DNA of 36,340 bases from the IMG/VR virus record IMGVR_UViG_3300022745_000099, positions 1-36,340 of that record; one strand, written 5' to 3'. A program made the translations under genes and the position numbers. The notes under the pieces were generated by a model. The model was not told where the DNA came from. It worked only from the letters and a program-made list of their open reading frames with translations, and did not search any database. This DNA comes from a virus. Shown here piece after piece: positions 2,851-30,415 of the stretch (position 1 is the stretch's first letter; each line of letters starts with the position of its first letter).

Positions 2851-2893
2851 GTACGCAGTGTGCGATACTAGCCAATTTGGTGCATCCCGCGTT

Positions 2894-2936: not shown

Positions 2937-2944
2937 GTTGGGCC

Positions 2945-10736: not shown

Positions 10737-10766
10737 GCGATTCAACCACCACGCCGGGCCGAATAA
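10737..10766 (+). promoter_or_regulatory. late-promoter element, copy 1
   Basis: GCGATTCAA at 10737-10745, 17 bases, ATAA at 10763-10766. This copy has ATAA where the other four have ATAG, and its downstream half is in a small GCCGGG/CCCGGC hairpin (10753-10772). No gene follows before the terminator at 10800. Confidence 0.55.
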
Positions 10767-10799
10767 CCCGGCCCCGCCTCACGGCATCCCCTCCCGACT

Positions 10800-10837
10800 A
10801 GGCCCGCCTTGACCCCCGTGAAGGCGGGCCTTCCTTT
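10800..10837 (+). terminator. rho-independent terminator
   Basis: An 11-bp perfect stem (10800-10810 with 10821-10831, arms AGGCCCGCCTT/AAGGCGGGCCT) with a 10-base loop and a following TTCCTTT. It ends the early/terminase transcript just before the head operon promoter. Confidence 0.8.
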
Positions 10838-10841
10838 GCCC

Positions 10842-10871
10842 GCGATTCAAGCAACCACCCCCACGCGATAG
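10842..10871 (+). promoter_or_regulatory. late-promoter element, copy 2 (head operon)
   Basis: GCGATTCAA at 10842-10850, 17 bases, ATAG at 10868-10871. It lies between the terminator and the GTG at 10899 and would drive the connector, scaffold and capsid genes. Confidence 0.72.
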
Positions 10872-10898
10872 CCAGCCTCCGAACCTAGGAGGCCGCAC

Positions 10899-11099
10899 GT
10901 GCCGATCGCCATCATCATCCTGCTCGCCGCCATCGCGCTCTACTGCGCCGTAAACTGGGTGCGCGTCTGCCTCTTCGACCTGAAGCATCGCGGCGCGCTC
11001 GATCTCGAAACCATCGCGATGCTCGACCGATCGGCCTTCCACAACGGTCTCTGCGTGATCCTGTGTGTCGGCTTCATCGGCCTCATCACGCACGTCTGA
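10899..11099 (+). CDS. small two-span membrane protein
   Basis: A GTG start at 10899 follows TAGGAGGCCGC, a ribosome site that recurs almost unchanged before two other late genes. The 66-residue product has two hydrophobic segments, about residues 3-18 and 49-65, with a charged loop (DLKHRGALDLETIAMLDRS) between. It is the first gene after late promoter copy 2. A membrane role during late infection is likely; no family was recognised. Confidence 0.65.
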   Translation: MPIAIIILLAAIALYCAVNWVRVCLFDLKHRGALDLETIAMLDRSAFHNGLCVILCVGFIGLITHV

Positions 11100-11114
11100 C
11101 CATAGGAGGCCGCT

Positions 11115-11300
11115 ATCTGCTCCACCCCGTCCATGCCGCCGCCGCCCGCTGAGCGCCAAGCCATGAAGCTGCCCGATCAGGGCGCGCAGAACGTCGGCAC
11201 CGATCCCTCGCGCCTGCGCCGCGCCATGCTCGCTGGCATGATTACCTCGCCTCAGGGCGTGCTCGGCTCGCCCACGGTCTCGAAGCCGACCCTTGGCTAA
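11115..11300 (+). CDS. small structural-module protein, probable ATC start
   Basis: AGGAGG at 11104-11109 is followed 5 bases later by ATC at 11115, which opens a frame reading (M)CSTPSMPPPPAERQAMKLPD and ending at TAA 11298-11300. Short phage proteins beginning MCSxPxxP are common next to portal genes, so the unusual ATC may be the true start (61 residues). ATG 11133 would give 55 residues but is 23 bases from the ribosome site. The product is Pro-rich at the front and ends SPQGVLGSPTVSKPTLG. Its stop overlaps the connector gene start region. Function unknown. Confidence 0.6.
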   Translation: MCSTPSMPPPPAERQAMKLPDQGAQNVGTDPSRLRRAMLAGMITSPQGVLGSPTVSKPTLG

Positions 11301-12981
11301 CGAACCCGCCACTTTCAACGGGGACAGTCTGCGTCACCGGCTGCAACGCCGGCTCGAAGGCATGAAGGCGATCCGCACCGATTTCGAGGCGGAATGGCTC
11401 GACATCGCCCGGTTCGCACAGCCTGCCCGGTCGCGATTCCTCTCGAACGAACGCGACAAGGGATCGCGGCGCCGGGTGCGCAACAACCGCCTGCTCGATC
11501 CCAAGGGCATCGAGGCGTTCCGCACGCTGACCAACGGCATGACAAGCGGGCTGTCGAGCGTGTCCCGCCCGTGGTTCATGCTCAAGCTGGCTGACGAGGA
11601 ACTGAGTGAGCGACCCGAGGTCAAGGACTGGCTGAGCGTCTGCGAGAAGCGGCTCTACAACTTCCTCGGCGCGTCCAACTTCTATTCGTCGGCCAAGGCG
11701 GGATATGCGGAACTCGGCCTGTTCGGCACCGAGGGCTGCGTCATGGTCGAGGACCAGACCGTTGGCGCGGTGTGCCACTCGCTGACGGCCGGCGAATACT
11801 GGATCGCGATCAGCCACTCGCTTGTGCCAGACACGCTGTTCCGGTTCTGCCCGATGGATGTGCGCCAGGCCGTGCAGACATTCAAGGACCGCGTCTCGCC
11901 AGCGGTGCGCAACCTCTACGATCAATCGAACTACACGCTGCCGGTGCAGTACTATCAGGCGATCGAGCCTGATCCTGAGTACAATCCGAACCGCATCGGG
12001 TCCAAGCCGTGGCGCTCGGTCTATTGGGACTACAACGACACCCGCGCAGATTTCGTCACCAAGATATCGGGCTACAACGAGCAACCGTTCTGGTCGCCAC
12101 GTTGGGACGTCGTGGGCGGCGATACCTATGGCGTCTCGCCTGCCATGGAAGCCCTGCCTGCACTGCGTGAACTGCAGATGCAGACCAAGCGCCGCAACGA
12201 GGCGATCGACAAGTTGGTCAAGCCGGAGATGGGCGTTCCGACTGGCGCGCGACTGACCGGCGAACCTGGGCGCACGTTCACCACGAACGGACTGACGCAG
12301 GATCAGGTCGTCATCCCGTACCAGATGCCCTATCAGGCCGTCGAGGCGATCGGGCAGGAAGTGCTCAAGTGCCAGCAGCAGATCGATGCGCTGTCCTATG
12401 CCGACCTGTTCAACGCCATCACGAACATGCAGGGCATCCAGCCCCGCAACGTCGAAGAGATCGCGGCGCGCAATGAAGAGAAGCTGACCCAGCTCGGCCC
12501 GGTGATCGAGCGCGTCTCGAACGAAAAGCTGGAAGTCGCAATCGACCGCGCGTTCGGCATCATGTTCCGCGGCGGGATGCTGCCCCCGCCCCCGCAATCG
12601 CTGGTCGATGCGGGCGTGGATCAGATCAACGTCGAGTTCGTGTCGATCCTGCACCAGATGCAGCGCATGGTTGGCATTGGCCAGATCGAGCGCACGGTCT
12701 CGTTCGTTGGCAACATGATCGCCGCGTTCCCCGACGCGCACGACAAGATCGATGTCGACGCCACGATCGACGAATACGCCTACCGGGCTGGCGCGCCGTC
12801 GAAGATCATCCGCTCGACTGCCGAGGCGGAACAGATGCGCCAGGCTCGCGCACAGCAGGCGCAGGCCGCGCAGATGGCGAGCACGATGCCTGCTGTGAAG
12901 GACGGCGCGCAGGCCGCGCAACTACTCAGCCAGACCGATGCGAACGGCACCTCGCTGCTCAATCGGATGATGCCTGCATGA
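11293..12981 (+). CDS. portal / head-tail connector protein (T7 and BPP-1 type)
   Basis: The 562-residue product matches the head-to-tail connecting protein family of podoviruses. It has an N-terminal helix LRHRLQRRLEGMKAIRTDFE with WLDIARFAQP, then LDPKGIEAFRTLTNGMTSGL, SRPWFMLKL, GTEGCVMVED, and late helical motifs MQTKRRNEAIDKLVKPEMGV and GIQPRNVEEIAARNEEKLTQ. It forms the dodecameric ring through which DNA enters and leaves. The C-terminus is Gln/Ala-rich. The start is TTG at 11293, overlapping the end of the previous gene. The next gene overlaps by ATGA. Confidence 0.9.
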   Translation: MANEPATFNGDSLRHRLQRRLEGMKAIRTDFEAEWLDIARFAQPARSRFLSNERDKGSRRRVRNNRLLDPKGIEAFRTLTNGMTSGLSSVSRPWFMLKLADEELSERPEVKDWLSVCEKRLYNFLGASNFYSSAKAGYAELGLFGTEGCVMVEDQTVGAVCHSLTAGEYWIAISHSLVPDTLFRFCPMDVRQAVQTFKDRVSPAVRNLYDQSNYTLPVQYYQAIEPDPEYNPNRIGSKPWRSVYWDYNDTRADFVTKISGYNEQPFWSPRWDVVGGDTYGVSPAMEALPALRELQMQTKRRNEAIDKLVKPEMGVPTGARLTGEPGRTFTTNGLTQDQVVIPYQMPYQAVEAIGQEVLKCQQQIDALSYADLFNAITNMQGIQPRNVEEIAARNEEKLTQLGPVIERVSNEKLEVAIDRAFGIMFRGGMLPPPPQSLVDAGVDQINVEFVSILHQMQRMVGIGQIERTVSFVGNMIAAFPDAHDKIDVDATIDEYAYRAGAPSKIIRSTAEAEQMRQARAQQAQAAQMASTMPAVKDGAQAAQLLSQTDANGTSLLNRMMPA

Positions 12982-13331
12982 TCGCCGACCTCACGCGCGA
13001 GGATGCGGAATACCTGCTCGGCCGCGCTGAATTTCGCCGGTTCCTGTTCGCCGCGATTCAAGCCGCTGGCCTGCTCGGGCACATCAACCCCGCCAATGGG
13101 CAAACAGGGCGTGATCTCGCGGAGGGACGTCGTAGCTTGGGGCTCGATCTGCTGATGCTGGCTGATGCCGGACAGCCTGAACCGCTGCGCTCGCCCCAAG
13201 GTTTGGCGACGCTCGATCAGATTATCCGTGAAGCCATGAACCCCAAGCCGAAGGACAAACCCCGTGACCGACGAAGTGACGATCCAGACCGAGACGACGA
13301 CAGCCAGCCCGGCCGATACGCCGGTATCTGA
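12978..13331 (+). CDS. Bbp19-like phage protein
   Basis: ATG overlaps the connector stop. The 117-residue product contains LTREDAEYLLGRAEFRRFLF and SLGLDLLMLAD, a pattern typical of the Bbp19 family in BPP-1-like phages, where it lies next to the portal gene. Function is unknown in the family. Its last 68 bases overlap the scaffold gene in another frame; the overlapping end is highly charged (RDRRSDDPDRDDD), so that part may be functionally unimportant. Confidence 0.72.
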   Translation: MIADLTREDAEYLLGRAEFRRFLFAAIQAAGLLGHINPANGQTGRDLAEGRRSLGLDLLMLADAGQPEPLRSPQGLATLDQIIREAMNPKPKDKPRDRRSDDPDRDDDSQPGRYAGI

Positions 13332-13986
13332 TGCACAGGCCGCCCCCGCTGCGTCGCCCGAAGCCGTTCAGGCCGAGGCCCCTGCCGCCGAAGAAGGCAC
13401 GGTGCTGGGCGACGGCGAGGTAACTGCGGTCAAGGAAGGCGAGGAACCCGCTGCCGAGACCAAAGATCAGCCTGCCGGCGCGCCTGAGAAGTACGAACTG
13501 GCGCTCGAAGGCATCGACCTCGATCCCGAACTCGTCGCTGAAGCTGAGCCGATCCTGCGCGACCTGAACCTGACCAACGACCAGGCCAACGCCTTGCTGC
13601 CGCTGGCGCCGAAGATCATGGAGAAGGCGCAAGCCGCGCTGACGCAGCAACTGCTCGATGCCGGCGCTTCGCAGCGCAAGGCGTGGCTCGATGCGTTTGC
13701 GGCTGACCCCGACATCGGCGGCGCCAAGCGCGAAGAGTCGACGCACCTCGCAGCCAAGGGCCTCGATGCCCTCGGCTTCCGCAACACGGGCTTCGGTGAG
13801 GACGGCAAGTCGCCGCATCCTTTCCGCGCGGCCCTCAACGAAACCGGCTTCGGCAACCATCCCGACATGATCCGTGCATTCCGCGCGCTCGGCGAGATGG
13901 CTGGCGAGGACGGCCTGTTCGCCCGCTCCAATTCCGGCGTTCGCGAGGACGTTCCGGCTTGGAAGGCGATGTATCCCAACGACTAG
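13264..13986 (+). CDS. scaffolding protein
   Basis: The 240-residue product is acidic, with an Ala/Pro/Glu-rich N-terminus (to about residue 80) and helical segments after it (ILRDLNLTNDQANALLPLAP and on). The tail contains GNHPDMIRAFRALGEMAGED. This composition and its position right before the capsid gene are typical of podovirus scaffolds, which shape the procapsid and then leave. The start is GTG 13264 with AAGGA upstream, inside the end of the Bbp19-like gene. The capsid gene follows after 11 bases. Confidence 0.8.
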   Translation: MTDEVTIQTETTTASPADTPVSDAQAAPAASPEAVQAEAPAAEEGTVLGDGEVTAVKEGEEPAAETKDQPAGAPEKYELALEGIDLDPELVAEAEPILRDLNLTNDQANALLPLAPKIMEKAQAALTQQLLDAGASQRKAWLDAFAADPDIGGAKREESTHLAAKGLDALGFRNTGFGEDGKSPHPFRAALNETGFGNHPDMIRAFRALGEMAGEDGLFARSNSGVREDVPAWKAMYPND

Positions 13987-13997
13987 GAGACTGAACC

Positions 13998-15017
13998 ATG
14001 GCCGTTCTTGGCGCCACCTACTGGAATCTCATCGATGCACTCAAGATGCAGGACCTCGGAGCCGAGGCTGCGATCGCCGAAGTGCTGCACCAGTTCTCGC
14101 CCTTCCTGAAGGACGCGAACGTGCAGGCCTGCAACAAGGGCACGAAGCACGCCGTCTCGATCCGCTCGGGTCTGCCTTCGGTCTCGTGGGGCGCGCTCTA
14201 TCAGGGCATCGCGCAGAGCAAGGGCGGCTACACGACCGTCGAAGAGACCACCGGCTTTGCCGAGGGCCTGTCGAGCGTCGACACCCGCCTGCTCAAGCTG
14301 CACCCGACCGAGACCGGCAAGCTGCGCCTGATGGAAGCGCAGGGATTCATCGAATCCATGGCGCAGACGCTGGAATCGGCGTTCTTCTACTCGAACGTGT
14401 TCACCTCGCCGACGCAGTTTCACGGCCTGGCGCCGCGCTACAACTCACTGAGCAACGTCAACGTGATCGCTGGCGGCGGTTCGGGCTCGGACAACACCTC
14501 GATCTGGTTCGTCACCCACGGCGACATGCAGACCTCGGTGCTGACCCCGGCCGGCATTCCTTCGGGACTGCAGCGCGAGGACAAGGGCGAAGTCCGCGTG
14601 CTCGACGGTTCGTCGAACCCTTACTACGTGAAGGAAGAATACTTCGCGCAGCACGCGGGTCTCTGCGTGAAGGACTGGCGTTGGAACGCCCGCGTCGCGA
14701 ACATCGACGTTTCGGACGTGATCGCCGGCTCGGTCAAGGTGAACGCGCTGATGCGCAAGGCCTACCACAAGCTGCAGGGCACCCACGCCTATCAGATGGA
14801 CAAGCCGGGCGTCGCATCGCCGGGCCGCACCGTCATCTACATGAACCGCACCATGTACGAGGCGCTCGACGCGGAATCGACCAACCGCCCAGGTGGCACC
14901 GACAACTTCGTCCGCCTGACGCCGATGGAAATCCAGGGCGAGGAAGTGATGTCGTGGCGCGGCATTCCCATCCGCCGCACCGACGCCCTGCTGAACACCG
15001 AAACCCTGGTGAGCTGA
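13998..15017 (+). CDS. major capsid protein (BPP-1 Bbp17-like)
   Basis: The 339-residue product begins MAVLGATYWNLIDALKMQDL and contains RSGLPSVSWGALYQGIAQSK, then ETTGFAEGLSSVDTRLLKLH and IESMAQTLESAFFYSN, with a C-terminal domain ending IPIRRTDALLNTETLVS. This pattern is shared by capsid proteins of BPP-1-like podoviruses, which adopt the HK97 fold. The ATG has AGGAG about 7 bases upstream. Its neighbours, scaffold before and Bbp16-like cement after, confirm the identity. Confidence 0.9.
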   Translation: MAVLGATYWNLIDALKMQDLGAEAAIAEVLHQFSPFLKDANVQACNKGTKHAVSIRSGLPSVSWGALYQGIAQSKGGYTTVEETTGFAEGLSSVDTRLLKLHPTETGKLRLMEAQGFIESMAQTLESAFFYSNVFTSPTQFHGLAPRYNSLSNVNVIAGGGSGSDNTSIWFVTHGDMQTSVLTPAGIPSGLQREDKGEVRVLDGSSNPYYVKEEYFAQHAGLCVKDWRWNARVANIDVSDVIAGSVKVNALMRKAYHKLQGTHAYQMDKPGVASPGRTVIYMNRTMYEALDAESTNRPGGTDNFVRLTPMEIQGEEVMSWRGIPIRRTDALLNTETLVS

Positions 15018-15054
15018 CGGCTCGACTGACGAACTCTTGAAATTGGAGAACACA

Positions 15055-15504
15055 ATGATCTTCGACACTACCCTGCAGTTCAGCAGCAATCAGGCCATCA
15101 CGGCGACCGCTGCCTCGACCAACTCCATTGATCTGGGTGCTACCGGCACTCCGTTCGGCGGCATCGCTCTCACGCGCGACATCGGCGCCGGCAAGGAAAT
15201 CGCCATTTCCTGCCTCGTCACCGAAACGTTCGCGACGCTGACCAGCCTCACCGTCACGATCGAGACCGACGACAACTCGTCGTTTTCCTCGGCCACGACC
15301 GTCTATTCGTCGGGTGCGATCCCGGTGGCGACGCTGGTGGCGGGCTATCCGTTCAAGGTTCCGGCGCACTTCCCGCTCGGCACCAATGAGCGTTATGTCC
15401 GCCTCAAGTACACCGTGGCCGGGTCGAGCGCGACCACGGGCAAGATCACGGCCGGCGTCGTTGACGGTCGCCAGACCAACAGCGCCCTCGGCGTCGCGGT
15501 CTAA
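15055..15504 (+). CDS. Bbp16-like capsid cement protein
   Basis: ATG 15055 has TTGGAG upstream and starts MIFDTTLQFSSNQAITATAA, followed by GGIALTRDIGAGKEIAISCL and a beta-rich body. This matches the Bbp16 family, which decorates and stabilises the capsid of BPP-1. The 149 residues are Thr/Ser-rich with few charged residues, as expected of a jelly-roll. It follows the capsid gene by 37 bases. Confidence 0.82.
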   Translation: MIFDTTLQFSSNQAITATAASTNSIDLGATGTPFGGIALTRDIGAGKEIAISCLVTETFATLTSLTVTIETDDNSSFSSATTVYSSGAIPVATLVAGYPFKVPAHFPLGTNERYVRLKYTVAGSSATTGKITAGVVDGRQTNSALGVAV

Positions 15505-15516
15505 GGGGGTTGAACG

Positions 15517-15738
15517 ATGGCACGCTATCGCGCAACCGACATCGCCGTTTATCTCTGCGACCAGGGCCGCATGGTGTTCGTCGGCGAGGAATTCTCGTTC
15601 GACGGCCCGGCGGGCTCGACCTGGGAACCGATCGACGATGCGGCCAAGGCGGCATGCAAGGCGGCTTTCCCGGAGAAGTATCCGGATGAAGCGCCGGCCA
15701 AGGGTCGCAAGGCGCCCGCCGACCTTACGGACGGCTGA
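15517..15738 (+). CDS. hypothetical structural-module protein
   Basis: Starts 12 bases after the cement gene stop, with GGGGG just upstream. The 73-residue product begins MARYRATDIAVYLCDQGRMV and has a Lys/Ala-rich tail (GRKAPADLTDG). Equivalent small genes lie at this place in related phages. No function can be read. Confidence 0.65.
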   Translation: MARYRATDIAVYLCDQGRMVFVGEEFSFDGPAGSTWEPIDDAAKAACKAAFPEKYPDEAPAKGRKAPADLTDG

Positions 15739-15746
15739 CAGGGGGT

Positions 15747-15775
15747 GGGGCGGTTGCTCCGGTAGCCGCCCCTTT
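15747..15775 (+). terminator. weak terminator or attenuator hairpin
   Basis: GGGGCGG (15747-15753) pairs with CCGCCCC (15766-15772), extended by weaker pairs, and is followed by TTT only. It fills the 42-base gap before the ATG at 15781. It might reduce transcription beyond the capsid genes. Confidence 0.45.
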
Positions 15776-15780
15776 CCATC

Positions 15781-16092
15781 ATGGCACAACTTAACCTCTC
15801 CGATCAGCCCAGCGCGCGCGGCCAGCAGTCGACGGAAGTCGGACCTTCAGACTATGCGCTCGGCAAAACCGCTGCCGGGCTATCTGGCGATTTCATCGCG
15901 CCCGTGGTCTCGTCGGCATGGGCCGCTGCAACCGGCACCGCTGACCGTACGACCTTCGCCACATACACCGCACCGACGATCAGCAACCCGCCCACGCAAG
16001 CCGAGGTGCAGGCGGTCGCGAATGCCGTTCAGGTGCTGTCTCGCCACATGAAGGCGCTGGTCGATGACCTAAAGGCCAAGGGCGCGATCTGA
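15781..16092 (+). CDS. hypothetical structural-module protein
   Basis: The 103-residue product starts MAQLNLSDQPSARGQQSTEV, has a Thr/Ala-rich middle (ATGTADRTTFATYTAPTISN) and ends with a helix (AVQVLSRHMKALVDDLKAKG). No Shine-Dalgarno is clear, as the upstream bases form the hairpin. It is the last gene before late promoter copy 3. Family unknown; a head-completion role is possible by position only. Confidence 0.6.
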   Translation: MAQLNLSDQPSARGQQSTEVGPSDYALGKTAAGLSGDFIAPVVSSAWAAATGTADRTTFATYTAPTISNPPTQAEVQAVANAVQVLSRHMKALVDDLKAKGAI

Positions 16093-16094
16093 TC

Positions 16095-16124
16095 GCGATT
16101 CAAGGCCGGGGCATCGCGGCATAG
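16095..16124 (+). promoter_or_regulatory. late-promoter element, copy 3 (tail/ejection operon)
   Basis: GCGATTCAA at 16095-16103, 17 bases, ATAG at 16121-16124, followed by TAGGAGGCCGC before the ATG at 16154. It begins three bases after the previous stop. Confidence 0.72.
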
Positions 16125-16153
16125 GCAGCGGGAAAGCCTAGGAGGCCGCGTCT

Positions 16154-16474
16154 ATGATTATCCAGAAATTTGCACCTCGACCCGGTGCTTCTGTCGGACT
16201 GGCTGTGACTGCCTCGATGGAGAGAAAGCAGGTTAGTTCCGACGTGGAAGTTGATTTGCTGATGTATAACCAGGGCGCGAAGGACTGCTACATCGAAATA
16301 GGCGGCAGTACGGTCACGGCCACTGTTACGACCACTAGCGCGAGCGGTTCCATGCCGATCAAGGCTGGTGACAGCAGAATCATTCGGAGCCTTGGTGGCA
16401 GCGTCTATGTTGCCGCCATTTGCGATGGCACCGACACCACGACGCTCATGGTCACTCCCGGCAACGGCTCGTAA
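16154..16474 (+). CDS. hypothetical virion-associated protein
   Basis: ATG 16154 lies 8 bases after AGGAGG. The 106-residue product (MIIQKFAPRPGASVGLAVTA and on) is beta-rich, with runs such as VDLLMYNQGAKDCYIEIGGS and SGSMPIKAGDSRIIRS. That pattern resembles small head or tail decoration domains, where a value is measured along a strand and capped by a GD turn. The family was not recognised. It leads the tail operon. Confidence 0.6.
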   Translation: MIIQKFAPRPGASVGLAVTASMERKQVSSDVEVDLLMYNQGAKDCYIEIGGSTVTATVTTTSASGSMPIKAGDSRIIRSLGGSVYVAAICDGTDTTTLMVTPGNGS

Positions 16475-16480
16475 TCTCCG

Positions 16481-17116
16481 ATGGCCTCCGTCATCACGCT
16501 CTGCAACGAGGCGCTCTCGACGATCGCGGCGGGACAAATCGCAGCTCTGACCGAGGACAGCCTCGAAGCGCGCGAGTGCAAGCGCTGGTCGCAAACCGTG
16601 CTCGACGAGATGGCGGAATGGACCGACTGGATCAGTCTGCTCAAGCGGGCAACGCTGGCCAAGGTCACGAACGATCGCGCCGCCGAATGGCTCTATGCCT
16701 ATGCGCCGCCTGCCGACATGACTGATCCCGTCGATCTGCGCGAGACCGAGGACGCGGCAACCACGCTGCAAGCCTATGGCCTTGGCGACTACCCGGTGCA
16801 GGATACCGCCTCGATCCCGTTCACCTATGAGGGCGGCGTGATCTACGCGAACATCGACAACGCGATCCTCATCTATGCCAGCGCGACGTTCGATGTCGGC
16901 ACCATGCGCCCGCTTGTGCGCCGCGCCTTTGTCACTGAACTCGCATTCCGCATTGCCCTGCCGATCAAGAAGGATGCCCGCCTCGCGCAGTTCGCGCAGT
17001 CGTTGGCGATCGCCGCGAAGAACATCGCTATCGCCGCTGAAGAGAATAAGAACCCACGTCGCCAGCCCCGCTACGTATCCGATGCCGAGTGGGCGCGTTC
17101 GGGAGTCGGCGTGTGA
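16481..17116 (+). CDS. tail tubular protein A-like (gatekeeper / adaptor)
   Basis: The 211-residue product begins MASVITLCNEALSTIAAGQI and contains CKRWSQTVLDEMAEWTDWIS, a helical layout typical of T7 Gp11-like adaptor proteins. The second half has a helix pair ending FAQSLAIAAKNIAIAAEENK. These proteins dock on the portal ring and begin the short tail. It precedes the large tail protein by a GTGA overlap, the standard order gp11-gp12. Confidence 0.75.
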   Translation: MASVITLCNEALSTIAAGQIAALTEDSLEARECKRWSQTVLDEMAEWTDWISLLKRATLAKVTNDRAAEWLYAYAPPADMTDPVDLRETEDAATTLQAYGLGDYPVQDTASIPFTYEGGVIYANIDNAILIYASATFDVGTMRPLVRRAFVTELAFRIALPIKKDARLAQFAQSLAIAAKNIAIAAEENKNPRRQPRYVSDAEWARSGVGV

Positions 17117-19218
17117 ATTTTCGCGCCGCGCAGGTCAACTTCAGCCGGGGGGAAATCGGCCCGCACCTCTATGGCCGGTTTGATGTCGATGCATGGCAGT
17201 CTGGCCTCAAGAAGGCGCGCAACGTCTTTGTGCTGAAATACGGCGGCGTGACGAAGCGCCCTGGGATGGAATTTGTGGCGGAGGTGATCGACGCCGCGCA
17301 TGACAATCGGCTGATCCCGTTTCAATTCAGTCTGACGCAGGCCTATGCGCTGGAATTCGGGCACCTCTACATGTCGCCATGCGCTGATGGTGGGCGCGTG
17401 CTCGATGGCCCCGTGCCGTATCAGTGTGCCACGCCGTACACGGGGACGGAACTGGCTGAAGTCGATTACGATCAAACGACCGATACCGTCTATCTCGCGC
17501 ACCTCAGCCATGCCCCTTCGAAGCTGCTGCGCCACACGAATACCAATTGGGAAGTGGTCTCCCTGACCTTTGGTCCGTCGATCTCTGCGCCGGCCGGGCT
17601 GGCCGTGACGGCGAACACTCCGAACACCGATGCACCAAACAGCGGCGCGGCGTACTTCCCCCTCAACCAGTCCTATGTCGTCACTGCGGTCAACGACGAC
17701 AATGGGCAGGAAAGCCGGGCAAGTGGTGTGCAGACGGTCAACAATGATTTGACGCTCAAGCGCAACTACAATGCGCTCTCATGGTCGGCGGTGACAGGTG
17801 CAACCCGCTACAACGTCTACAAGGCCGAACAATTCCAGTTCTACGGCTATATCGGCACGACCGAGGATCTGCAGTTCACCGATAACAATATCGGCCCCGC
17901 CCTCGACAAGGCTCCGCCGCAAGCCTTCAATCCGTTCCCCGGCGCTGGCGATTATCCGTCCAGCGTTACCCTTTTCCAGCAACGTCTGTTCTGGGGCCGC
18001 ACAACCAATGTCCCGCACGGCGGGTGGGGATCGCGCACGGGCGTCTCACAGTTGGAGAACATGGACCGCTCGCGACCACTGCGGGCCGATGACAGCTTGT
18101 CGTTCGCGGTCATGGGCGCCAAGGTCGGCGCGCTGAACCACTTCGCGCCCACAACCTCGCTCATCGCCCTGACCAGCGATGCAATCTTCAACATTGACGG
18201 CGATGGGCAAGGCGGGGCGATCACGGCAAACTCTGCCCCATCGGTGCGCAGACAGTCAGGCCGGTCGGCCTCGCGCCTCAAGCCTATCGTGATAGACAAC
18301 GTGATCTTCTACACGCCAGCCACTGGATCAGCGGTGCGCACGATCGGCTATGACTTCGCCATCGACGGCTACAAGTCGAACGATGTGTCGATCTTCTCGC
18401 CGCACTTCCTTGAGCGCATGTCGATCGTGTCATGGTGCTATGTGCAGGAACCGCATTCCCTGATCTGGGCCGCGCGTTCTGATGGGGCGCTGCTGTGCTT
18501 CACTTGGGAGCAAGAGCAAAACGTCTGGGGCTGGACGCTGTGTGAGACCGATGGGCTAGTGAAGTCGGTCTGCTCGATATTCGAGAACGGCGAGGATCGT
18601 GTCTATCTAATTGTCGAGCGCGTGATTGCCGGTGTGACCAAGCGCTTCGTTGAGCGCATGGCATCATATTGGTGGAACACAGTCGCAGATTCCAACTACC
18701 TCGATTGCTCGGTGTCCGGTGAATACGGAACGCCTCAATCGACGTTTTCAGGCCTAAGCCATCTCAATGGCCGCACCGACATTGCTGGACTGGTCGACGG
18801 CGTGATTGTGACCGGGCTGACGGTATCGGGCGGGTCAGTCACATTGCCGGCATCGGTGCCACCGGGCCGCAAAGCTGTGTTCGGCATCCCCTACTCGCTT
18901 GCGGTTGAAACGCTGCCCTATCGCGCGAACACGCCGGGCGTTGGGGTCAACGTCGGTCGCTCGCACAATGTCGGCATGGCGGTGCTGACGTTGAAGGACA
19001 CTCGCTCGGTCAAGGCTGGGATCGATGCTGATCACCTGTTTCGCGTCAAATCGCGCATGACTGAGGCTTATGGCACTGCCGACGACCTCATGAACGGCGA
19101 CTGGATCGTGAACTGTGACAACGCGGTGAAGGACTACGCATCCCTCTATATCGCGCAGGATGATCCGGTGCCGTTCACGCTGCTCGGCGTGGCATATGAT
19201 CCGATCGTAAACGGGTGA
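17113..19218 (+). CDS. tail tubular protein B-like (tail nozzle)
   Basis: The 701-residue product begins VNFRAAQVNFSRGEIGPHLY and continues RFDVDAWQSGLKKARNVFVL and GGVTKRPGMEFVAE, the standard opening of large podovirus tail nozzle proteins. Later motifs include FQQRLFWGRTTNVPHGGWGS, typical of the same family. The middle carries a fibronectin-like segment (SYVVTAVNDDNGQESRASGV). GTG 17113 overlaps the previous stop. It forms the distal tail tube through which DNA passes. Confidence 0.85.
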   Translation: MNFRAAQVNFSRGEIGPHLYGRFDVDAWQSGLKKARNVFVLKYGGVTKRPGMEFVAEVIDAAHDNRLIPFQFSLTQAYALEFGHLYMSPCADGGRVLDGPVPYQCATPYTGTELAEVDYDQTTDTVYLAHLSHAPSKLLRHTNTNWEVVSLTFGPSISAPAGLAVTANTPNTDAPNSGAAYFPLNQSYVVTAVNDDNGQESRASGVQTVNNDLTLKRNYNALSWSAVTGATRYNVYKAEQFQFYGYIGTTEDLQFTDNNIGPALDKAPPQAFNPFPGAGDYPSSVTLFQQRLFWGRTTNVPHGGWGSRTGVSQLENMDRSRPLRADDSLSFAVMGAKVGALNHFAPTTSLIALTSDAIFNIDGDGQGGAITANSAPSVRRQSGRSASRLKPIVIDNVIFYTPATGSAVRTIGYDFAIDGYKSNDVSIFSPHFLERMSIVSWCYVQEPHSLIWAARSDGALLCFTWEQEQNVWGWTLCETDGLVKSVCSIFENGEDRVYLIVERVIAGVTKRFVERMASYWWNTVADSNYLDCSVSGEYGTPQSTFSGLSHLNGRTDIAGLVDGVIVTGLTVSGGSVTLPASVPPGRKAVFGIPYSLAVETLPYRANTPGVGVNVGRSHNVGMAVLTLKDTRSVKAGIDADHLFRVKSRMTEAYGTADDLMNGDWIVNCDNAVKDYASLYIAQDDPVPFTLLGVAYDPIVNG

Positions 19219-19221
19219 GCC

Positions 19222-19683
19222 ATGCATAGCCGCGTTCGCTTAGTCCCCGCGCAGCACAAGCATATCGGCCGCATTGCCCGGCTGATGCGAGACATTGACC
19301 AGCAGGAATGCTGGGCAATGGGCCGCGAACCGAAGCAAGCGCTGCGGCATGCACTGGCATCGTCGGCGAAGGCGTGGACTGCGCTGGTCGATGGTGAGCC
19401 GGAAGCGATGTTCGGCGTTGTCGTGCAGTCTGTGTTGACCGGCGATGGCGTGCCTTGGTTCCTGGGGACCGACGAGGTTTATCTCCATGGCCGCGAACTG
19501 CTGATGTGGGGGCCGGGGATGGTTGCGCGGCTGTGCGATTCAACCGTGACTCTGCGCAACCTAGTTTCATCGCACAACACCCGCGCCATCCGTCTCCTAC
19601 AGCGGTGGGGCTTCAACATAGGGAAGGAGGTGATAAAGATCGCCGGTGTCGAGTTCCTTCCCTTTGAAAAGGTGCCTTCCTGA
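19222..19683 (+). CDS. T7 Gp13-like protein with GNAT-type fold
   Basis: The 153-residue product resembles the internal virion protein A (Gp13) family of T7-like phages: RLVPAQHKHIGRIARLMRDI, then WTALVDGEPEAMFGVVV, then WFLGTDEVYLHGRELLMWGP, ending NTRAIRLLQRWGFNIGKEV. The last motif is the acetyltransferase-fold hallmark. Gp13 helps virion assembly; enzymatic activity is not shown. Its TGA shares a base with the next ATG. A GCGATTCAA...CTAG sequence lies inside its coding region (19535). Confidence 0.75.
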   Translation: MHSRVRLVPAQHKHIGRIARLMRDIDQQECWAMGREPKQALRHALASSAKAWTALVDGEPEAMFGVVVQSVLTGDGVPWFLGTDEVYLHGRELLMWGPGMVARLCDSTVTLRNLVSSHNTRAIRLLQRWGFNIGKEVIKIAGVEFLPFEKVPS

Positions 19684-20261: not shown

Positions 20262-20264
20262 GTC

Positions 20265-22717: not shown

Positions 22718-22731
22718 GGCTAACCTCCCGT

Positions 22732-22761
22732 GCGATTCAACCCCAGCCTTATGACGCATAG
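22732..22761 (+). promoter_or_regulatory. late-promoter element, copy 4 (giant protein)
   Basis: GCGATTCAA at 22732-22740, 17 bases, ATAG at 22758-22761. The next gene starts at 22771, only nine bases later, so the mRNA would be almost leaderless. The element also lies in the upstream region of the divergent lipoprotein gene. Confidence 0.68.
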
Positions 22762-22770
22762 CCCCGCACG

Positions 22771-25700
22771 ATGGCAACAGACCCGCTCAACGATCCTTTC
22801 GCCTATGCCGAGCGGTTCAATCCGCGCACGCCAGCGCAGCCGCAACCCGCATCGAATGATGATCCGGTCGTTGCCGAAATCCGGCGCCAACGTGCGTTGC
22901 AGACGTTCAGCGACATTACTGGCTCTCCACCTGCCGATCAGGTAGCGCGGGTCTCGCGCGTGGCCCGCGATGCCGGTCTGCCGCCTGGTGCCGTCGACAA
23001 CCCCGATCAGGTCGAGCAATCACTGAACGCGGGCGCGCTTTCGAAGGTCATGGACGATCACCCCGCCATCGGCGCTCACCTCGCGGCGAACCCGCGCACG
23101 GCGGTCATGGCGCAAGGGGATCACAAGGCGCTGGGGATGCTCGGTCTTGCGTTCTCGGTTCCCCAGATGGTGCGCCAGGCTATCTTGGGGGACCAACAGG
23201 CGATCGACGCTGAAATGATGATTCCCGGTCAAGTCAGCGGTGCGCTCAAGGCCGGCACCGCGAACATCTATTCCGGCATTGCAGGTTTCGCACAGATGCT
23301 TTCCGAAGGCGTCGGGCACAAGAGCGAGTCGGCGGCGCTGCGGCAACAGGTCGTGAATGCCAACGACTACGCCAAGCGCACGATGCCGCAAACCGGCAAC
23401 TGGTTCGCCGATCAGGTGCTTGCCGGCATCAGCAATGCACCTTCGACTACGCTTGCAATGGCCGGTGGTCTTGCTGCTCGCGGCGTCGGGCTGGGCATCA
23501 AGGCCGCGTCTCTCGTAGGCGCGGCGACGGGCGGCATTTCTCAGGGTGGGCAGTCCTACACTGCGGCGCGCGAGCAAGGCGCATCATATGCCAAAGCAGC
23601 GACATATGCCGGCATCGATACGGCAACCGAGATCGGCGGCGAGTATGTTGGCAAACTGTCGTTCCTGCATCAAACCGAGGCGGGCGGTTCGGTCCTCAAG
23701 CGCTTTCTGAAAAGCCAGATCGGCGAACAGCTCGGCGAGCAATTCTCGACGGTCGCGCAGGACATTTCCGCGCATGCGATGTTGCCTGAGAACAGGGACA
23801 AGACGCTCGGTGATCTTGCCGCAAAACTGCCAGGCGACATGGCGGCGACGACTGTGCAAACGCTGGTGGCTGGCGGTATTGCGAACCTGACGATCGCAGG
23901 GCTGGAAAAGTCGCTGAACACGGCCGGCGAAAAGGCGCGGGCCGCTGCGGCTGCGCGCGCTCATCAATCTCAGGCTGCAGTCGAATCTGCGACCATCGAC
24001 GCCCTCGGCCGCGCCGCACAAGATTCGAAACTGCGCGGCCGCGATCCGGTGGCATACAATGGCCTCGTCGCGGAAAACGCGGACCATCACGGCGTGCAGG
24101 CGGTCTATGTCCCCGCCACAGCAGCGCAAGCCTACATGCAATCAGACAGTTACGACCAATACACGGATCCGATGGAGCGCTACCGGGCGCACATCGACGA
24201 AGCCGCTGCGACTGGCGGTGATGTGGTCCTGCCGCCTGACTTCGCGCTCGGGACGCTGCCAGGCACCAAGGCGTGGGAAGCGCTCAAGCCTGACATGCGG
24301 CTGTCAGCGGGTGGGCTGTCGTCGCGCGAGGCCGATGATCTGCACGCGCATCTCAACGAAGCGGTGTCGCAAATCGAGGATACCGCGGCAAAGCAGGCTG
24401 CGCAGGGGCAGGCCGAGAACACCGCGCACGCTCAGATTGTCGAACGCGTCCGCACGATGCTGCAAGATGCCGGGTTCACGCCCGACGCGGCGACGAAGCA
24501 AGCTGAACTGATCGCGCTGCGGGAAGCGGTACGGGCTGCGCGCATGGGGCGTCCGCTGACCGGCAACGAATTCTCGACGCAGGTTCAACAGGTATTGCCG
24601 CCCGCTTTGGCTGCGGCGCGTGCTGCCGATGCGACCGATCTGGTCATCAACGCGCTGCGCAAGGGCAAGCCGGCCGAGGTGCAACAGGGGCAATCGCTGC
24701 TGCAGTTCATCGCCGATCGCGGCGGCGTCGAGGATAAGGGCGGCGATCTGGCGGCGATGGGCGCTGGTGACTGGCACATGCGCACGACCGACAAGGGCAA
24801 GCGCGTGCCGATGGCTGGGCGCAAGAAGTTGCTCAAGCCGTTCGTCGAAGCGCAGGGCAACATGATCGGCGGTGCGCACAATCCGAACAGCATGGAAAGC
24901 ATGTTCGATGCGGCGGTGTCGGCGGGCTATTTCCCTGACCTGTATGCGCAGCGCGAGAACGGCACCGGCTATGCGGACGCTCTGGACCTGAACGACTTCA
25001 AGGCGGCTATCGCTGATGAACTGGCTGGGCGTCCTCGGCATGCCGCTGAGCCCAAGGTCGACCACTACCGGGCTGCGGCTGACGAACTGGCGACGTTGCT
25101 GGGTCAGCGTGGGATCGATCCGGCGGGGATGTCTGATGCCGAACTGCGGGGGGCGATTGATCGGTTGGGGGTGGAACAGAGTGGGGGGTACGATCAGGCT
25201 CCGGGTCCGTTCGACTTTACGAATCCGGGCGGCAAGGGCGAGATCAGCGGCCAATATGGGCGCGATACGTGGGTGGGCGACACGAACATTTCCTACTCGG
25301 TGAAGCCGAACGGGATTGTCGAGATTGGCCTGCTGAAAACCCGAGACGGGCATGAAGGCGCTGGCTCTGCGCGGGGAGCGATGGAGCAACTTATTCGCCA
25401 GGCTGATGCGGAGGGCAAGACGTTGGCCCTGACGTCGGAACCGATGAACAAGTCGGTCAACAAGGCGCGTCTGACTGCGTTCTACAAGTCGCTGGGATTT
25501 GTCGAGAACAAGGGTAAGTCACGCAATTTCGAGACGCAGGCGGGGATGATCCGGGAGCCTCGCTCATACAATCAGGCTGATCCCGCCACCAGCGAGGCGT
25601 TCAAGGCATGGTCAGGTAATGCCGATGTGGTCCGCTCAGGTGAAGCCAAGTCGTTCGACTTCGCTACTGGCAAGCCTGTCGTGGTCGAGGCGTTCCACGG

Positions 25701-28700
25701 CACCGCACGCCCCGATCGCGTTAGCGACACCTTCCGCAAGGACCGGGCATCTGCCGGGCCGATGTCCTATTTCACGTCATCGCCGGAACTGGCATCGAAG
25801 TATGCCACCAGCAAGAATGACACGTCGATCGACGACAGCGAATTCGAGTATGGGAACTGGTTCAAGGTCAAGGTCGGCCGGAAGTCGGTGCCGGCCGATC
25901 AGGCATTCCTCAAGCTTGATCCTCTGACGCGATCCAATATCCGCAAACTCGCTCCTCGTGTGACGATGGATTGGGATACCGACAAGGTGATCTTGGGTGA
26001 TGCCAGCACGATGCGCGGCAACGGCGGCTATGATCCTGCAACCCGCGATCCGCTCAAGGGCCTCGTCGAGGCCTGGCTGACCAGCGGCGCACTATACGAT
26101 CGCGAGGACGACTTTCTCGACGTTCTGAAACTGGCTGGTGTCCCGCCCAAGTTGATCGAATACGACAACCCGCACGCAACCGCTGCGTCGGTGTTCCATG
26201 TGTGGGTGTCGATGAAAAACCCGCTCTATGTCGGGGATATACCTGCTGACGTATCGAAGTCGCTGGATGATCTGGCGGCAAACGATGCGTCTACGGCTGA
26301 GGAACGCCCCGGCTACCAATGGGACAAGCGCAGTATCACACCCCGCGATTGGGTGGCGGAATTGCGCGGCGATCACGGCACTTATGCATGGACGCGCATT
26401 CCCGATGCGGTGACGGAATTGTTCAAGTCGCACGGCTATGACGGGATCGTTGACTATTCAGGCAAGGGCGGTGGCACTGAGATGGCACCGGTCTACATTC
26501 CGTTTGAGGAAACGCAGGTCAAGGCGATCAACAATCGCGGCACATTTGATCCCAATGATCCGCGAATGCTCAACCAAACCTACGGCGACGGCCCGCGCGG
26601 TCGCATCATCTTCGACCAGAACCGCCCACCGCTGATCCAGCTTTTCCAGCAGCGCAACATGTCCACGCTGCTGCATGAGATCAGCCATCAATGGCTCGAA
26701 GAACTGCGCGCCGATGCCGAGCACCCTGACGCGCCCGATCAGGTCAAGGCTGACTGGCAGACCGTGCAGGACTGGTTCCATGCCAACGGCCATGTGCTCG
26801 ATCAGGGCATCATCCCGGTCGAGGCGCATGAGATGTTCGCCCGCACTGGCGAGCGCTACCTGATGGAAGGCAAGGCACCATCGTCGGCTTTGACCCGCCT
26901 GTTCGAGACGTTCCGGGGCTGGATGCTGGCCGTCTACAAGACGCTCGACAAACTGCGCTCGCCGATCAGCCCGGAAATCCGCGAAGTGTTCGATCGACTG
27001 CTCGCGACCGACGACGAAATCCAGGGCGCGCGCGAACGGGAAGCGCTCGATCCGCTGTTCAAGGATGCGGCATCCATCGGCATGACGGGGCCGGAGCATG
27101 AGGCCTACATGCGCCAGGTGCAGGGCGCGCGGGACGAAGCGAACTCGGCGCTGCTGGCAAAGACGATGGCGGCGATCAAGCGGCGCGAGACGAAGGCCTA
27201 CAACGACGAGCGCAACGGGGTGCGTGACGAGGAATCGGCGCGGCTCGATCAGTCACCCATCCTGGCCAGCCTGCGCGCGATGAAGGAAACGCCGATCAGC
27301 AAGGAATGGCTGACCAGCAACATGGGCGAGGACGTGCTCGACCTGCTGCCCAAGCGCGTCCCGCCGCTGTGGCGTGAGGGCGGCGTGCATCCCGACGAGA
27401 TTGCCGAGGAACACGGCTTCGGCTCGGGGCAGGAAATGATCGAGACGCTGATCGGGCAGGATCGCGCGCACCGCAACGCACGCGAGGCTGGCGACAAGCG
27501 CACGATGCGGGATCGCATGATCGACCAGGCCACCGATGCCGAGATGAAGCGGCGCCATGGCGACGATCCGTTCGACAACGGCGCGATTGAGCGTGAGGCG
27601 CTGGCTGCGGTCAACGGTGAACTGCAGGGCGAAGTCATGGCGACCGAGCTGCGCGTGCTGGCCCGCAAGTCCGGCAAGCGTCCGACGCCATATGCGATGG
27701 CGCGCGAATGGGCGCGAGGCAAGGTGCGCGGCGGTACGGTGGCGCAAGAGGCGGCCCCGGCTGCTATCCAGCGTCATGCTCGCAACGTCGCCAAGGCTGG
27801 CCGTGAAGCCGAGCATGCGATGATGGCCGGCAAGACCGACGAAGCGTTCGCGGCAAAGCAGCGCCAGATGCTGTCGAGCGCGTTGCTGGCTGAGGCGAAG
27901 GCGGCGAATGACGACGTGACGGCGGCACAGTCGCGTATGGCCAAGGTCGCCAAGGCCAAGACCATGAAGTCGGTCGATCAGGACTATCTCGAACAGGCGC
28001 AATCCCTGCTCGAAGCGGTTGACCTGCGCCCGCGTTCGCAGCGCGCCATCGATCGGCAAGCGAAATGGGCAGCGTGGGCGGAACAGCAGCGCGCGGCCGG
28101 GCATGATGTCGTGGTGCCGGACAGCTACGCGGCGACGCTCGAAGGCCAGCACTGGTCGCGCATGTCGGTCGAGGGGCTGCTCGGTCTCGACGAAGCGGTG
28201 CAGCAGGTCATGCACCTGGGCCGGTTCAAGCAAACACTGCTCGACGGCAAGGAGCGACGCGATTTCGATCAGGTCGTGCAAGAGGCGGTCAACGGCGCGG
28301 GGAACATCAAGGGTCCGCCGCCTGCCGATCTGGCATCACCAGACTTCCTCGACTCGATCCGCAACAAACTGTCATTCGTTGATGCGGCGCTGCTGAAACT
28401 GGAAACGATTTTCGACTGGCTCGACGGCGGCAATCCGAACGGCGTATTCAACCGCATCGTGTTCCGTCCGCTCGCCAAAGCGCAGGCACGCGAGCAGGAT
28501 ATGCTCCACGACTACTATGGCCGCATCAAGGCGCTGTTTGAAGCGGTGCCTGCTGAACAGGTCCAGCGCTGGAACGACAAGACCCTGCCTCCGTTCATCG
28601 ACCGCTTCACAGGGCGCCCGATGCGGATGGACCGGCAGCAGGTCGTCGCGATGGCGCTCAACATCGGCAACGAGGGCAACCTGCAGCGCCTGACTGACGG

Positions 28701-30378
28701 CTATGGGATCAATGCTGAGGCGCTGCAGTCCTATCTCAACGACACGCTGACGGCCGAGGAATGGCAGTTCGTGCAAGGCGTGTGGGATACTATCGATACG
28801 CTCTGGCCTGAGATTGAAGCGCTGGAACGTCGCGTCAACGGCGTTGCCCCCGACAAGGTGGAAGCCCGCGGCTTCACGACGCCGCATGGCGAGATGCGCG
28901 GCGGGTATTATCCAGCAGTCTACGATACGACGCGAGATCGGCAGGCAGGTGAGAACGCGGATAAGGCTAGCGACCTGTTTGCCGCGAAGGCAACGCGCGC
29001 CAATACACGGGCATCATCAACAAAGGCGCGTGCTGAAAAGGTTTCGCGCCCGCTGAATTTCGACCTGGGCGTCATCAACCGCCATCTCGGCGAGGTCATC
29101 CATGATATGACCCATCGCGAGGCGGTGATGCAGGCATGGAAATTTCTGTCGAGCAGCCGCATTCAATCTGCGGTCGATGCAGCGCTGGGCCATCACATCA
29201 CCAACCAGTTCAAGCCGTGGGTCAAGTTCATCGCCAATTCGTGGGCGATGGATCAGGCTGGTAATGAAGGTTTGGTGAAAATCATTCGTCGAGCGCGGAC
29301 GAACACCACGATGGTCGGCATGGGATTCCGTGCCACCACGATCATTTCGCAGGTAGCCGGCTACACGAACTCGATGGAGGTGGTCGGCGCAAAAGCCATG
29401 GCAAAGGCGATGGTGCATTTCCTGCAACATCCGGTCCAGGTTTCGCGCTCGGTGCTCGAAAAGTCGGATGAAGTGCGGCAGCGCATGGATACCATGGACC
29501 GCGACATCAAGGCGGAAGTCGAGCGACTGGCGGCAAACAATCCTGCGTCCCGGTTCCTCGCCAAAGTGAACGACGGCAAGCAGTTCGCGTTTCACTTCAT
29601 TGGCCTGATGGATCGCGTGGTATCGATCCCGACTTGGTTGGCTGGCTACAATAATGCTTTGGAAGCGGGTGCCAGCGAAGAGGACGCGATCTATGCCGGT
29701 GACAAGGCGGTGCGCGTCTCACAAGGTGCTGGCGCAGCGAAGGACCTGGCAGCAGTGCAGCGGGGAACTGGCGCGCTGGGTGAAGCCGGCAAACTGCTGA
29801 CCATGTTCTACAGCTTCAACTCGATGCAGTATCAGCGTGAGCGGACACTGGCGCGCGATGCGATGGGCGCTGACGATCGGGTCAAGCGCGTGACGCCAAG
29901 ACTGATGGCGCGGGCAACCGTGCTATTCCTGATCGGGCCACTGCTGACCGAGGTCATGCGCGGCGTTGCTGGTGCGCCGGCCGGGCCAGATGATGACGAA
30001 TGGTGGGCGCAATGGGTATCGCGCAAGATGCTCGCCAATGCGGTCGGCCCCATCCCTGTCGTGCGAGATGTGTTTGAGCCGTCATGGAACAAGGCGATCA
30101 AGGGGCGTTATGCATCGGCTTCGATTACCCCTGTGCAGCGCGCCCTTGATAGCATCGTCAATGTGTTCGGTGATGTCGGGAATGTTGCGCGAGGCGAGCC
30201 GACGAAGCACGCGACGAAGAATGCGCTTGAACTAACTGGCTATGCGACTGGCTTGGTGCCCGGCCAGATTGCCAGCGCAACTCAGTTCCTCGTCGATTGG
30301 GCGAACGGCGACGCTGATCCACAATCGGCAGGCGATGTGTTGCACGGCCTTTCCACAGGCCACGTGCCCAAACACTAG
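22771..30378 (+). CDS. giant polyvalent virion (ejection) protein with GNAT, ART and zinc-protease modules
   Basis: 2535 residues, a large polyvalent protein of the kind injected with phage DNA. The N-terminal ~370 residues include Gly/Ala-rich hydrophobic stretches. A GNAT-like acetyltransferase lies near 825-930 (HEGAGSARGAM at 861-871, then LTAFYKSLGFVENKG). An ADP-ribosyltransferase-like module follows, from EAFHGT (His976) and SYFTSSPELASKYA (999-1012) to GYDGIVDYSGKGGGTEMAPV near 1220. A zinc-protease motif HEISH is at 1302-1306, with PVEAHEMFARTGERYL near 1350 as likely third ligand. The rest is helical, ending in a tail resembling LPD38 of such proteins. These activities could modify host proteins at entry. 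No Shine-Dalgarno is visible. Confidence 0.82.
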   Translation: MATDPLNDPFAYAERFNPRTPAQPQPASNDDPVVAEIRRQRALQTFSDITGSPPADQVARVSRVARDAGLPPGAVDNPDQVEQSLNAGALSKVMDDHPAIGAHLAANPRTAVMAQGDHKALGMLGLAFSVPQMVRQAILGDQQAIDAEMMIPGQVSGALKAGTANIYSGIAGFAQMLSEGVGHKSESAALRQQVVNANDYAKRTMPQTGNWFADQVLAGISNAPSTTLAMAGGLAARGVGLGIKAASLVGAATGGISQGGQSYTAAREQGASYAKAATYAGIDTATEIGGEYVGKLSFLHQTEAGGSVLKRFLKSQIGEQLGEQFSTVAQDISAHAMLPENRDKTLGDLAAKLPGDMAATTVQTLVAGGIANLTIAGLEKSLNTAGEKARAAAAARAHQSQAAVESATIDALGRAAQDSKLRGRDPVAYNGLVAENADHHGVQAVYVPATAAQAYMQSDSYDQYTDPMERYRAHIDEAAATGGDVVLPPDFALGTLPGTKAWEALKPDMRLSAGGLSSREADDLHAHLNEAVSQIEDTAAKQAAQGQAENTAHAQIVERVRTMLQDAGFTPDAATKQAELIALREAVRAARMGRPLTGNEFSTQVQQVLPPALAAARAADATDLVINALRKGKPAEVQQGQSLLQFIADRGGVEDKGGDLAAMGAGDWHMRTTDKGKRVPMAGRKKLLKPFVEAQGNMIGGAHNPNSMESMFDAAVSAGYFPDLYAQRENGTGYADALDLNDFKAAIADELAGRPRHAAEPKVDHYRAAADELATLLGQRGIDPAGMSDAELRGAIDRLGVEQSGGYDQAPGPFDFTNPGGKGEISGQYGRDTWVGDTNISYSVKPNGIVEIGLLKTRDGHEGAGSARGAMEQLIRQADAEGKTLALTSEPMNKSVNKARLTAFYKSLGFVENKGKSRNFETQAGMIREPRSYNQADPATSEAFKAWSGNADVVRSGEAKSFDFATGKPVVVEAFHGTARPDRVSDTFRKDRASAGPMSYFTSSPELASKYATSKNDTSIDDSEFEYGNWFKVKVGRKSVPADQAFLKLDPLTRSNIRKLAPRVTMDWDTDKVILGDASTMRGNGGYDPATRDPLKGLVEAWLTSGALYDREDDFLDVLKLAGVPPKLIEYDNPHATAASVFHVWVSMKNPLYVGDIPADVSKSLDDLAANDASTAEERPGYQWDKRSITPRDWVAELRGDHGTYAWTRIPDAVTELFKSHGYDGIVDYSGKGGGTEMAPVYIPFEETQVKAINNRGTFDPNDPRMLNQTYGDGPRGRIIFDQNRPPLIQLFQQRNMSTLLHEISHQWLEELRADAEHPDAPDQVKADWQTVQDWFHANGHVLDQGIIPVEAHEMFARTGERYLMEGKAPSSALTRLFETFRGWMLAVYKTLDKLRSPISPEIREVFDRLLATDDEIQGAREREALDPLFKDAASIGMTGPEHEAYMRQVQGARDEANSALLAKTMAAIKRRETKAYNDERNGVRDEESARLDQSPILASLRAMKETPISKEWLTSNMGEDVLDLLPKRVPPLWREGGVHPDEIAEEHGFGSGQEMIETLIGQDRAHRNAREAGDKRTMRDRMIDQATDAEMKRRHGDDPFDNGAIEREALAAVNGELQGEVMATELRVLARKSGKRPTPYAMAREWARGKVRGGTVAQEAAPAAIQRHARNVAKAGREAEHAMMAGKTDEAFAAKQRQMLSSALLAEAKAANDDVTAAQSRMAKVAKAKTMKSVDQDYLEQAQSLLEAVDLRPRSQRAIDRQAKWAAWAEQQRAAGHDVVVPDSYAATLEGQHWSRMSVEGLLGLDEAVQQVMHLGRFKQTLLDGKERRDFDQVVQEAVNGAGNIKGPPPADLASPDFLDSIRNKLSFVDAALLKLETIFDWLDGGNPNGVFNRIVFRPLAKAQAREQDMLHDYYGRIKALFEAVPAEQVQRWNDKTLPPFIDRFTGRPMRMDRQQVVAMALNIGNEGNLQRLTDGYGINAEALQSYLNDTLTAEEWQFVQGVWDTIDTLWPEIEALERRVNGVAPDKVEARGFTTPHGEMRGGYYPAVYDTTRDRQAGENADKASDLFAAKATRANTRASSTKARAEKVSRPLNFDLGVINRHLGEVIHDMTHREAVMQAWKFLSSSRIQSAVDAALGHHITNQFKPWVKFIANSWAMDQAGNEGLVKIIRRARTNTTMVGMGFRATTIISQVAGYTNSMEVVGAKAMAKAMVHFLQHPVQVSRSVLEKSDEVRQRMDTMDRDIKAEVERLAANNPASRFLAKVNDGKQFAFHFIGLMDRVVSIPTWLAGYNNALEAGASEEDAIYAGDKAVRVSQGAGAAKDLAAVQRGTGALGEAGKLLTMFYSFNSMQYQRERTLARDAMGADDRVKRVTPRLMARATVLFLIGPLLTEVMRGVAGAPAGPDDDEWWAQWVSRKMLANAVGPIPVVRDVFEPSWNKAIKGRYASASITPVQRALDSIVNVFGDVGNVARGEPTKHATKNALELTGYATGLVPGQIASATQFLVDWANGDADPQSAGDVLHGLSTGHVPKH

Positions 30379-30385
30379 CCCGCGC

Positions 30386-30415
30386 GCGATTCAAGCCAGC
30401 GCCCCCGCCCCATAG
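30386..30415 (+). promoter_or_regulatory. late-promoter element, copy 5 (fibre/lysis operon)
   Basis: GCGATTCAA at 30386-30394, 17 bases, ATAG at 30412-30415, followed by CAGGAGGCGCGC before the ATG at 30447. It starts seven bases after the giant gene's stop. Confidence 0.7.

Follow-up and report, generated by a model that had tools for sequence, protein, structure and literature searches.

What does a nine-base word do that recurs, always on one strand, in the gaps before the late genes of a phage, and what reads it? We addressed this question in a virus record of 36,340 bases, the whole of which is called the window here. The sequence-only reading of this DNA had proposed a phage-specific late promoter serving a regulon with an unknown activator. 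We think it likely that the full explanation has three parts, namely late promoters, a winged-helix reader and translation guards, an inference made from sequence and without expression data.

The window is a temperate podophage

The DNA of the window belongs to a temperate podophage, kin to Novosphingobium prophages: close relatives reside as prophages in Novosphingobium and in other Sphingomonadales, and its portal/connector is related to those of epsilon15 and BPP-1. The plus-strand genes run in the order terminase, portal/connector, capsid, tail and internal virion proteins. The scanned ORFs of the window include no RNA polymerase gene and give no confident sigma-factor match, and an Rfam scan of the window found nothing. 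Two further genes are:

2494-2988, minus strand: repressor-like gene
22771-30378: late gene encoding a 2535-aa protein, with promoter P5 (see below)

The 2535-aa protein matches the ADP-ribosyltransferase domain of polyvalent proteins, and also LPD22. At the left end of the window (1-87) lies a tandem repeat of a 27-base unit in 3.2 copies. The small pre-portal gene (11115-11297, plus strand) has an apparent ATC start codon after AGGAGG; over distinct contexts the codon at this place is ATC in 17 (the window included), ATT in 3 and ATG in 30, and a recurring AUC or AUU start would be unusual.

Copies of the element in the window

The word GCGATTCAA occurs seven times in the window, on the plus strand only. 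Dinucleotide shuffles gave a mean of 0.64 occurrences, and none of 100 shuffles reached seven. Five copies are intergenic, were re-located exactly where they had been reported, and have ATA exactly 17 bases on; the finer description of this second half, ATAG (once ATAA) with C two bases after it, is true for all five. The earlier count was right for the intergenic copies but not for the total, which includes two within genes.

10737-10765, plus strand: P1, GCGATTCAA-N17-ATA (ATAA), inferred start 10776
10800-10838, plus strand: terminator-like hairpin with a T-rich tail, between P1 and P2
10842-10870, plus strand: P2, the first late promoter, before the portal/capsid block, ATAG, inferred start 10881
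13053-13061, plus strand: site X, inside gene 12978-13331, box only, with GCA in place of ATA
16095-16123, plus strand: P3, promoter before the tail block, ATAG, inferred start 16134
19535-19563, plus strand: P4 (site Y), inside gene 19222-19683, GCGATTCAA-N17-CTA (CTAG), inferred start 19574
22732-22760, plus strand: P5, promoter of the 2535-aa gene, ATAG, inferred start 22771, the A of the ATG
30386-30414, plus strand: P6, promoter before the fibre block, ATAG, inferred start 30425

The region 10774-10842, which spans the terminator-like hairpin, has a folding energy of -29.9 kcal/mol (z -4.7). The tandem arrangement of P1 and P2 is also seen in one relative, locus L114, where the whole cassette of P1, hairpin and P2 (window 10737-10870) is kept at 3484-3620 with a different hairpin sequence. 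The RNA predicted from P1 up to the terminator-like hairpin is about 60 nt long.

The element is conserved in relatives and its box changes in concert

In dozens of diverged relatives the same late blocks are preceded by an element with the consensus GAT(T/C)CA(A/C)-N17-NTA. It is kept upstream of the portal block in relatives whose portals are 56-71% identical, and three full phages (G001, G007 and G008) have it ahead of most of the blocks that it precedes in the window, the site before the large gene of G007 having a spacer of 16 bases. Counted across all loci of the group, distinct sites number 77 on the plus strand and 5 on the minus strand. The two bases preceding GAT are less fixed than the box itself. 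The loci overlap, and their thinning was based on identity and took no account of phylogeny. Most of the box and TA letters in the thinned site sets are dictated by the search pattern, so the information content at these positions is partly forced, which is not true of the strand bias or of the spike of ATG positions described below.

Three box types occur, for which the box DNA words in the phages are GCGATTCAA, GCGATCCAA and GCGATTCAC:

GATTCAA: type A
GATCCAA: type B
GATTCAC: type C

The variants are uniform within one phage, coding sites included, and differ between phages of one genus; both A-type and B-type phages occur in Novosphingobium. This pattern of different boxes in one genus, each uniform per phage, is why we infer that the box reader is probably phage-borne. 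Coding and intergenic sites change together within a phage, because the spellings of sites X and Y follow the box type. The box half of site X is conserved in relatives of all three types, with the TA half missing: it reads GCG ATT CAA in most A phages, GCG ATC CAA in B phages and GCG ATT CAC in C phages, the last of these changing Gln to His. Site Y is conserved as a full element in relatives with GATTCAA or GATTCAC (GAT TCA A or GAT TCA C), with its CTA leucine codon fixed, and both halves are lost in B phages; CTA makes up 2% of the leucine codons in the late genes of the window. One locus, L009, deviates from this in-gene pattern by one base. The concern that the motif might be equally common in the coding DNA of relatives was not borne out: the few copies in coding DNA keep to fixed positions and are conserved elements in their own right. 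In host genomes, most box-type sites fall within the prophage, with few outside. In Novosphingobium sp. SG751A, for instance, prophage sites were located on contig C1 at 251671, 256774, 259882, 264532 and 273995.

In several relatives, GCGATTCAG-N17-CTA also occurs inside the winged-helix gene described below (L106 10180, L112 8273, L097 7273, L114 864, L137 10177 and others), where it is spelled with CGA, AGG and GCT codons. It is absent in the window and may be an additional promoter that serves the terminase genes.

Promoter geometry places the inferred start 12 nt after the T of NTA

At 19 of the 77 sites an ATG follows the T of NTA at a distance of exactly 12 nt, and no site has one at 10, 11, 13 or 14 nt. 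The genes concerned are the small pre-portal gene, the first tail gene and the gene for the 2535-aa protein. Leaderless mRNAs beginning with AUG are known in alphaproteobacteria (PMC3616915). The exact 12-nt distance indicates that T is -12, that A is -11 and that the mRNAs in question are leaderless; with T at -12, the box falls at -37 to -31. The mRNA of the 2535-aa gene, at 22771, is among those inferred to be leaderless.

Two elements at a fixed spacing, with transcription beginning some 12 nt downstream of the first -10 base, are what a promoter should display, and the sites conform to this as far as sequence can tell, the start itself being inferred. No ordinary -35 element stands out at them. 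We conclude, subject to expression data, that host RNA polymerase uses the element as a promoter whose -35 box is non-standard. The earlier view that both hexamers are unusual holds for the first element, but the TA of the second fits positions -12 and -11 of an ordinary -10 element. The starts inferred here lie 3 nt from those previously expected at 10779, 16131, 22768 and 30422, and the list now also includes 10881 and 19574.

A LexA-fold winged-helix protein is the candidate activator

8159-8533, plus strand: candidate late activator, a 124-aa LexA-fold winged-helix protein (start codon uncertain, the ORF opening at 7925)

The gene lies just upstream of the ORF for the terminase small subunit and overlaps it, and it is the sole non-structural gene common to eight compared phages. 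Relatives of the protein were found in 40 loci identified by their portals and in 64 viral loci from a search with its alignment; many of these 64 had been missed by the portal search, and most of those with enough downstream DNA carry the element. The element is present in 83 of the 96 loci with the winged-helix protein and in none of the 10 portal relatives without it. Some of the 13 loci with the protein and no site are short, but L136 and L138 are not. Among the window genes tested, G184 has relatives only of the winged-helix protein and of one internal virion protein, and it has two GCGATTCAA-N17-ATA sites. The motif is absent where weak homologs of the protein occur in other genomes.

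The predicted structure of the protein is confident over about residues 10-80, and the last ~22 residues are of low confidence. The nearest fold among the matches listed is the LexA DNA-binding domain (Z 9.0, rmsd 2.1, 71 residues aligned), and by this measure the protein does possess a LexA winged-helix DNA-binding domain. The 124-aa protein gave no match to the C-terminal self-cleaving peptidase domain of the LexA family. MotA is not among the fold matches listed, the family matches no named phage family, and a collection of phage records held no match to the window's protein.

Among phages that share one box (the A phages) the recognition helix is highly variable, so the wing or other residues may read the box. 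Compared with all GATTCAA members, the GATTCAC group differs consistently in two residues only, F44 to A and N/Q70 to H, and residue 70 lies in the wing. This difference may reflect one lineage only, which leaves covariation of protein and box unsettled. On balance we regard the protein as a likely late activator, the activation being inferred: it would read the box and bring in host RNA polymerase at a weak -10 element.

Some late genes appear to be translated only from late-promoter RNA

10875-10893, plus strand: hairpin GCCTCC/GGAGGC burying the Shine-Dalgarno, with the left arm (10875-10880) upstream of the inferred start

At 15 distinct pre-portal sites of the non-B types, the predicted pairing partner of the Shine-Dalgarno is a segment from roughly -9 to +2. 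Pairing is better between the matched arms than after arms are re-paired (5 of 3000 were as good) or left arms are shuffled (0 of 1000). The left arm was sought within -10 to +2, and a wider search region gave similar arms. Nine B sites gave no such pairing signal. Since the left arm lies upstream of the inferred start, only read-through RNA should be able to form the hairpin. Predicted Shine-Dalgarno exposure at the non-B sites is 0.39 in the late RNA, 0.14 in the read-through RNA and 0.30 when -12 to -1 is shuffled; it differs little between the RNAs at B sites. At P2 of the window it falls from 0.41 in late RNA to 0.17 in read-through RNA, and P3 and P6 have no Shine-Dalgarno hairpin.

The layout of some sites thus seems to restrict translation of late genes to RNA that starts at the late promoters, and there would be two such guards: an ATG that is itself the +1 base, and a Shine-Dalgarno buried in a hairpin whose left arm precedes +1. 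With either one, efficient translation is inferred to require RNA begun at the late promoter.

Alternative explanations

Another phage factor, such as a cryptic protein of the sigma type or a further activator, might read the promoters, with the winged-helix protein merely accompanying that factor. The variable recognition helix leaves room for this, and a two-HTH protein (4054-4512, plus strand) has weak matches to Mor, to sigma-70 region 4 and to phage late activators. It was our first candidate for the activator and was dropped, as no relative of it was found in the loci examined for it; its region 4 match is sub-threshold and the gene is not conserved, and the ORFs scanned gave no better candidate for a phage sigma factor with regions 2 and 4. 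With no other non-structural gene shared by the eight phages, we consider a different phage factor unlikely, though not negligibly so. LexA-type domains are best known from repressors, and the winged-helix protein could be one, covering host-sigma promoters until it is removed on induction. Its nearest fold is a repressor domain and its boxes would likewise change together with it, but an operator has no need of a fixed distance between box and TA, and the ordinary -35 element expected of host-sigma promoters is not conspicuous at the sites; repression is accordingly an improbable role.

The two-part layout resembles sigma-factor promoters in general, which might suggest a host alternative sigma factor. 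Boxes that differ between phages of one host genus and not within a phage make this very improbable, and a host regulon was rejected given that so few sites lie outside prophage. We give least credence to an RNA signal, a packaging site or a replication site that is no promoter at all: every copy is on the coding strand, a terminator-like hairpin separates P1 from P2, and site X lacks its TA half, but a variable spacer of fixed length with ATG at 12 nt is the geometry of an RNA polymerase. Such a spacer of 17 bases also does not fit a contiguous promoter of the T7 type, and no scanned ORF matched a T7-type single-subunit RNA polymerase. GANTC is the CcrM methylation site in alphaproteobacteria, and the GATTC of all A- and C-type boxes is a GANTC site; methylation cannot be required, because the GATCCAA group lacks it.

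Discussion

The proposal of a late regulon is supported by comparison with dozens of relatives, in which the element keeps its spacing and favours one strand, and also by the ATG spike, the concerted box changes and the scarcity of host sites outside prophage. What it lacked were the winged-helix candidate, the in-gene promoter at 19535, the leaderless start at 22771 and the hairpin at 10875-10893. As we picture it, the element would be a late promoter class of Sphingomonadales temperate phages: the box GAT(T/C)CA(A/C) at -37 to -31 would substitute for the usual -35 element, TA would supply positions -12 and -11 of the -10 element, and transcription by host RNA polymerase would begin 12 nt past the T. 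The most likely reader of the box would be the LexA-fold protein that the phage itself encodes immediately ahead of its terminase genes. Five intergenic copies and one in-gene copy would turn on the blocks for portal/capsid, tail, internal proteins, the 2535-aa protein and fibres.

The nearest precedent is the T4 middle promoter, where sigma appropriation by MotA and AsiA lets a phage box replace the -35 element while the -10 element is kept (PMC6755090). The present sites share this plan, with only the TA of the -10 element remaining, and here too a phage DNA-binding protein is inferred to redirect host RNA polymerase. Unlike the MotA box, which is centred at -30, the box here spans -37 to -31; MotA has two domains and the co-factor AsiA, whereas the protein here is a single winged-helix domain with no known co-factor; and MotA serves middle genes, not late ones. 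For the guards, the precedent is T4 gene e, whose Shine-Dalgarno has been demonstrated to be hidden in long read-through RNA and free in late-promoter RNA, which lacks the 5' arm (PMC3014915). The non-B pre-portal sites and P2 of the window match this design, given the inferred start: the Shine-Dalgarno is masked by a predicted hairpin whose 5' arm would be absent from late RNA. In contrast to gene e, the putative gate stands at the first late promoter of many phages, and a second design, the leaderless ATG, exists beside it.

Late activators can be encoded near terminase genes, an example being staphylococcal RinA, and the winged-helix protein resembles RinA as a small phage DNA-binding protein encoded beside them. 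It shares the fold of its DNA-binding domain with the LexA repressor, but differs from it in lacking the peptidase domain and in its proposed role as an activator of phage late genes. We suggest only tentatively, and with somewhat more doubt than assent, that LexA-fold winged-helix proteins form a new class of late activators that replace sigma at the -35 position, with a regulon that couples translation to RNA from its own promoters. The open-access literature yielded no paper that joins late promoter, phage and Novosphingobium.

For a widespread, uncharacterised group of Sphingomonadales prophages, this supplies a defined late regulon, a candidate for its master switch and predictions exact to the base. 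Naturally occurring box variants, together with the two residues of the GATTCAC group, offer a ready-made test of specificity. That translation seems to be tied to the late promoter in two ways points to a general rule open to direct test.
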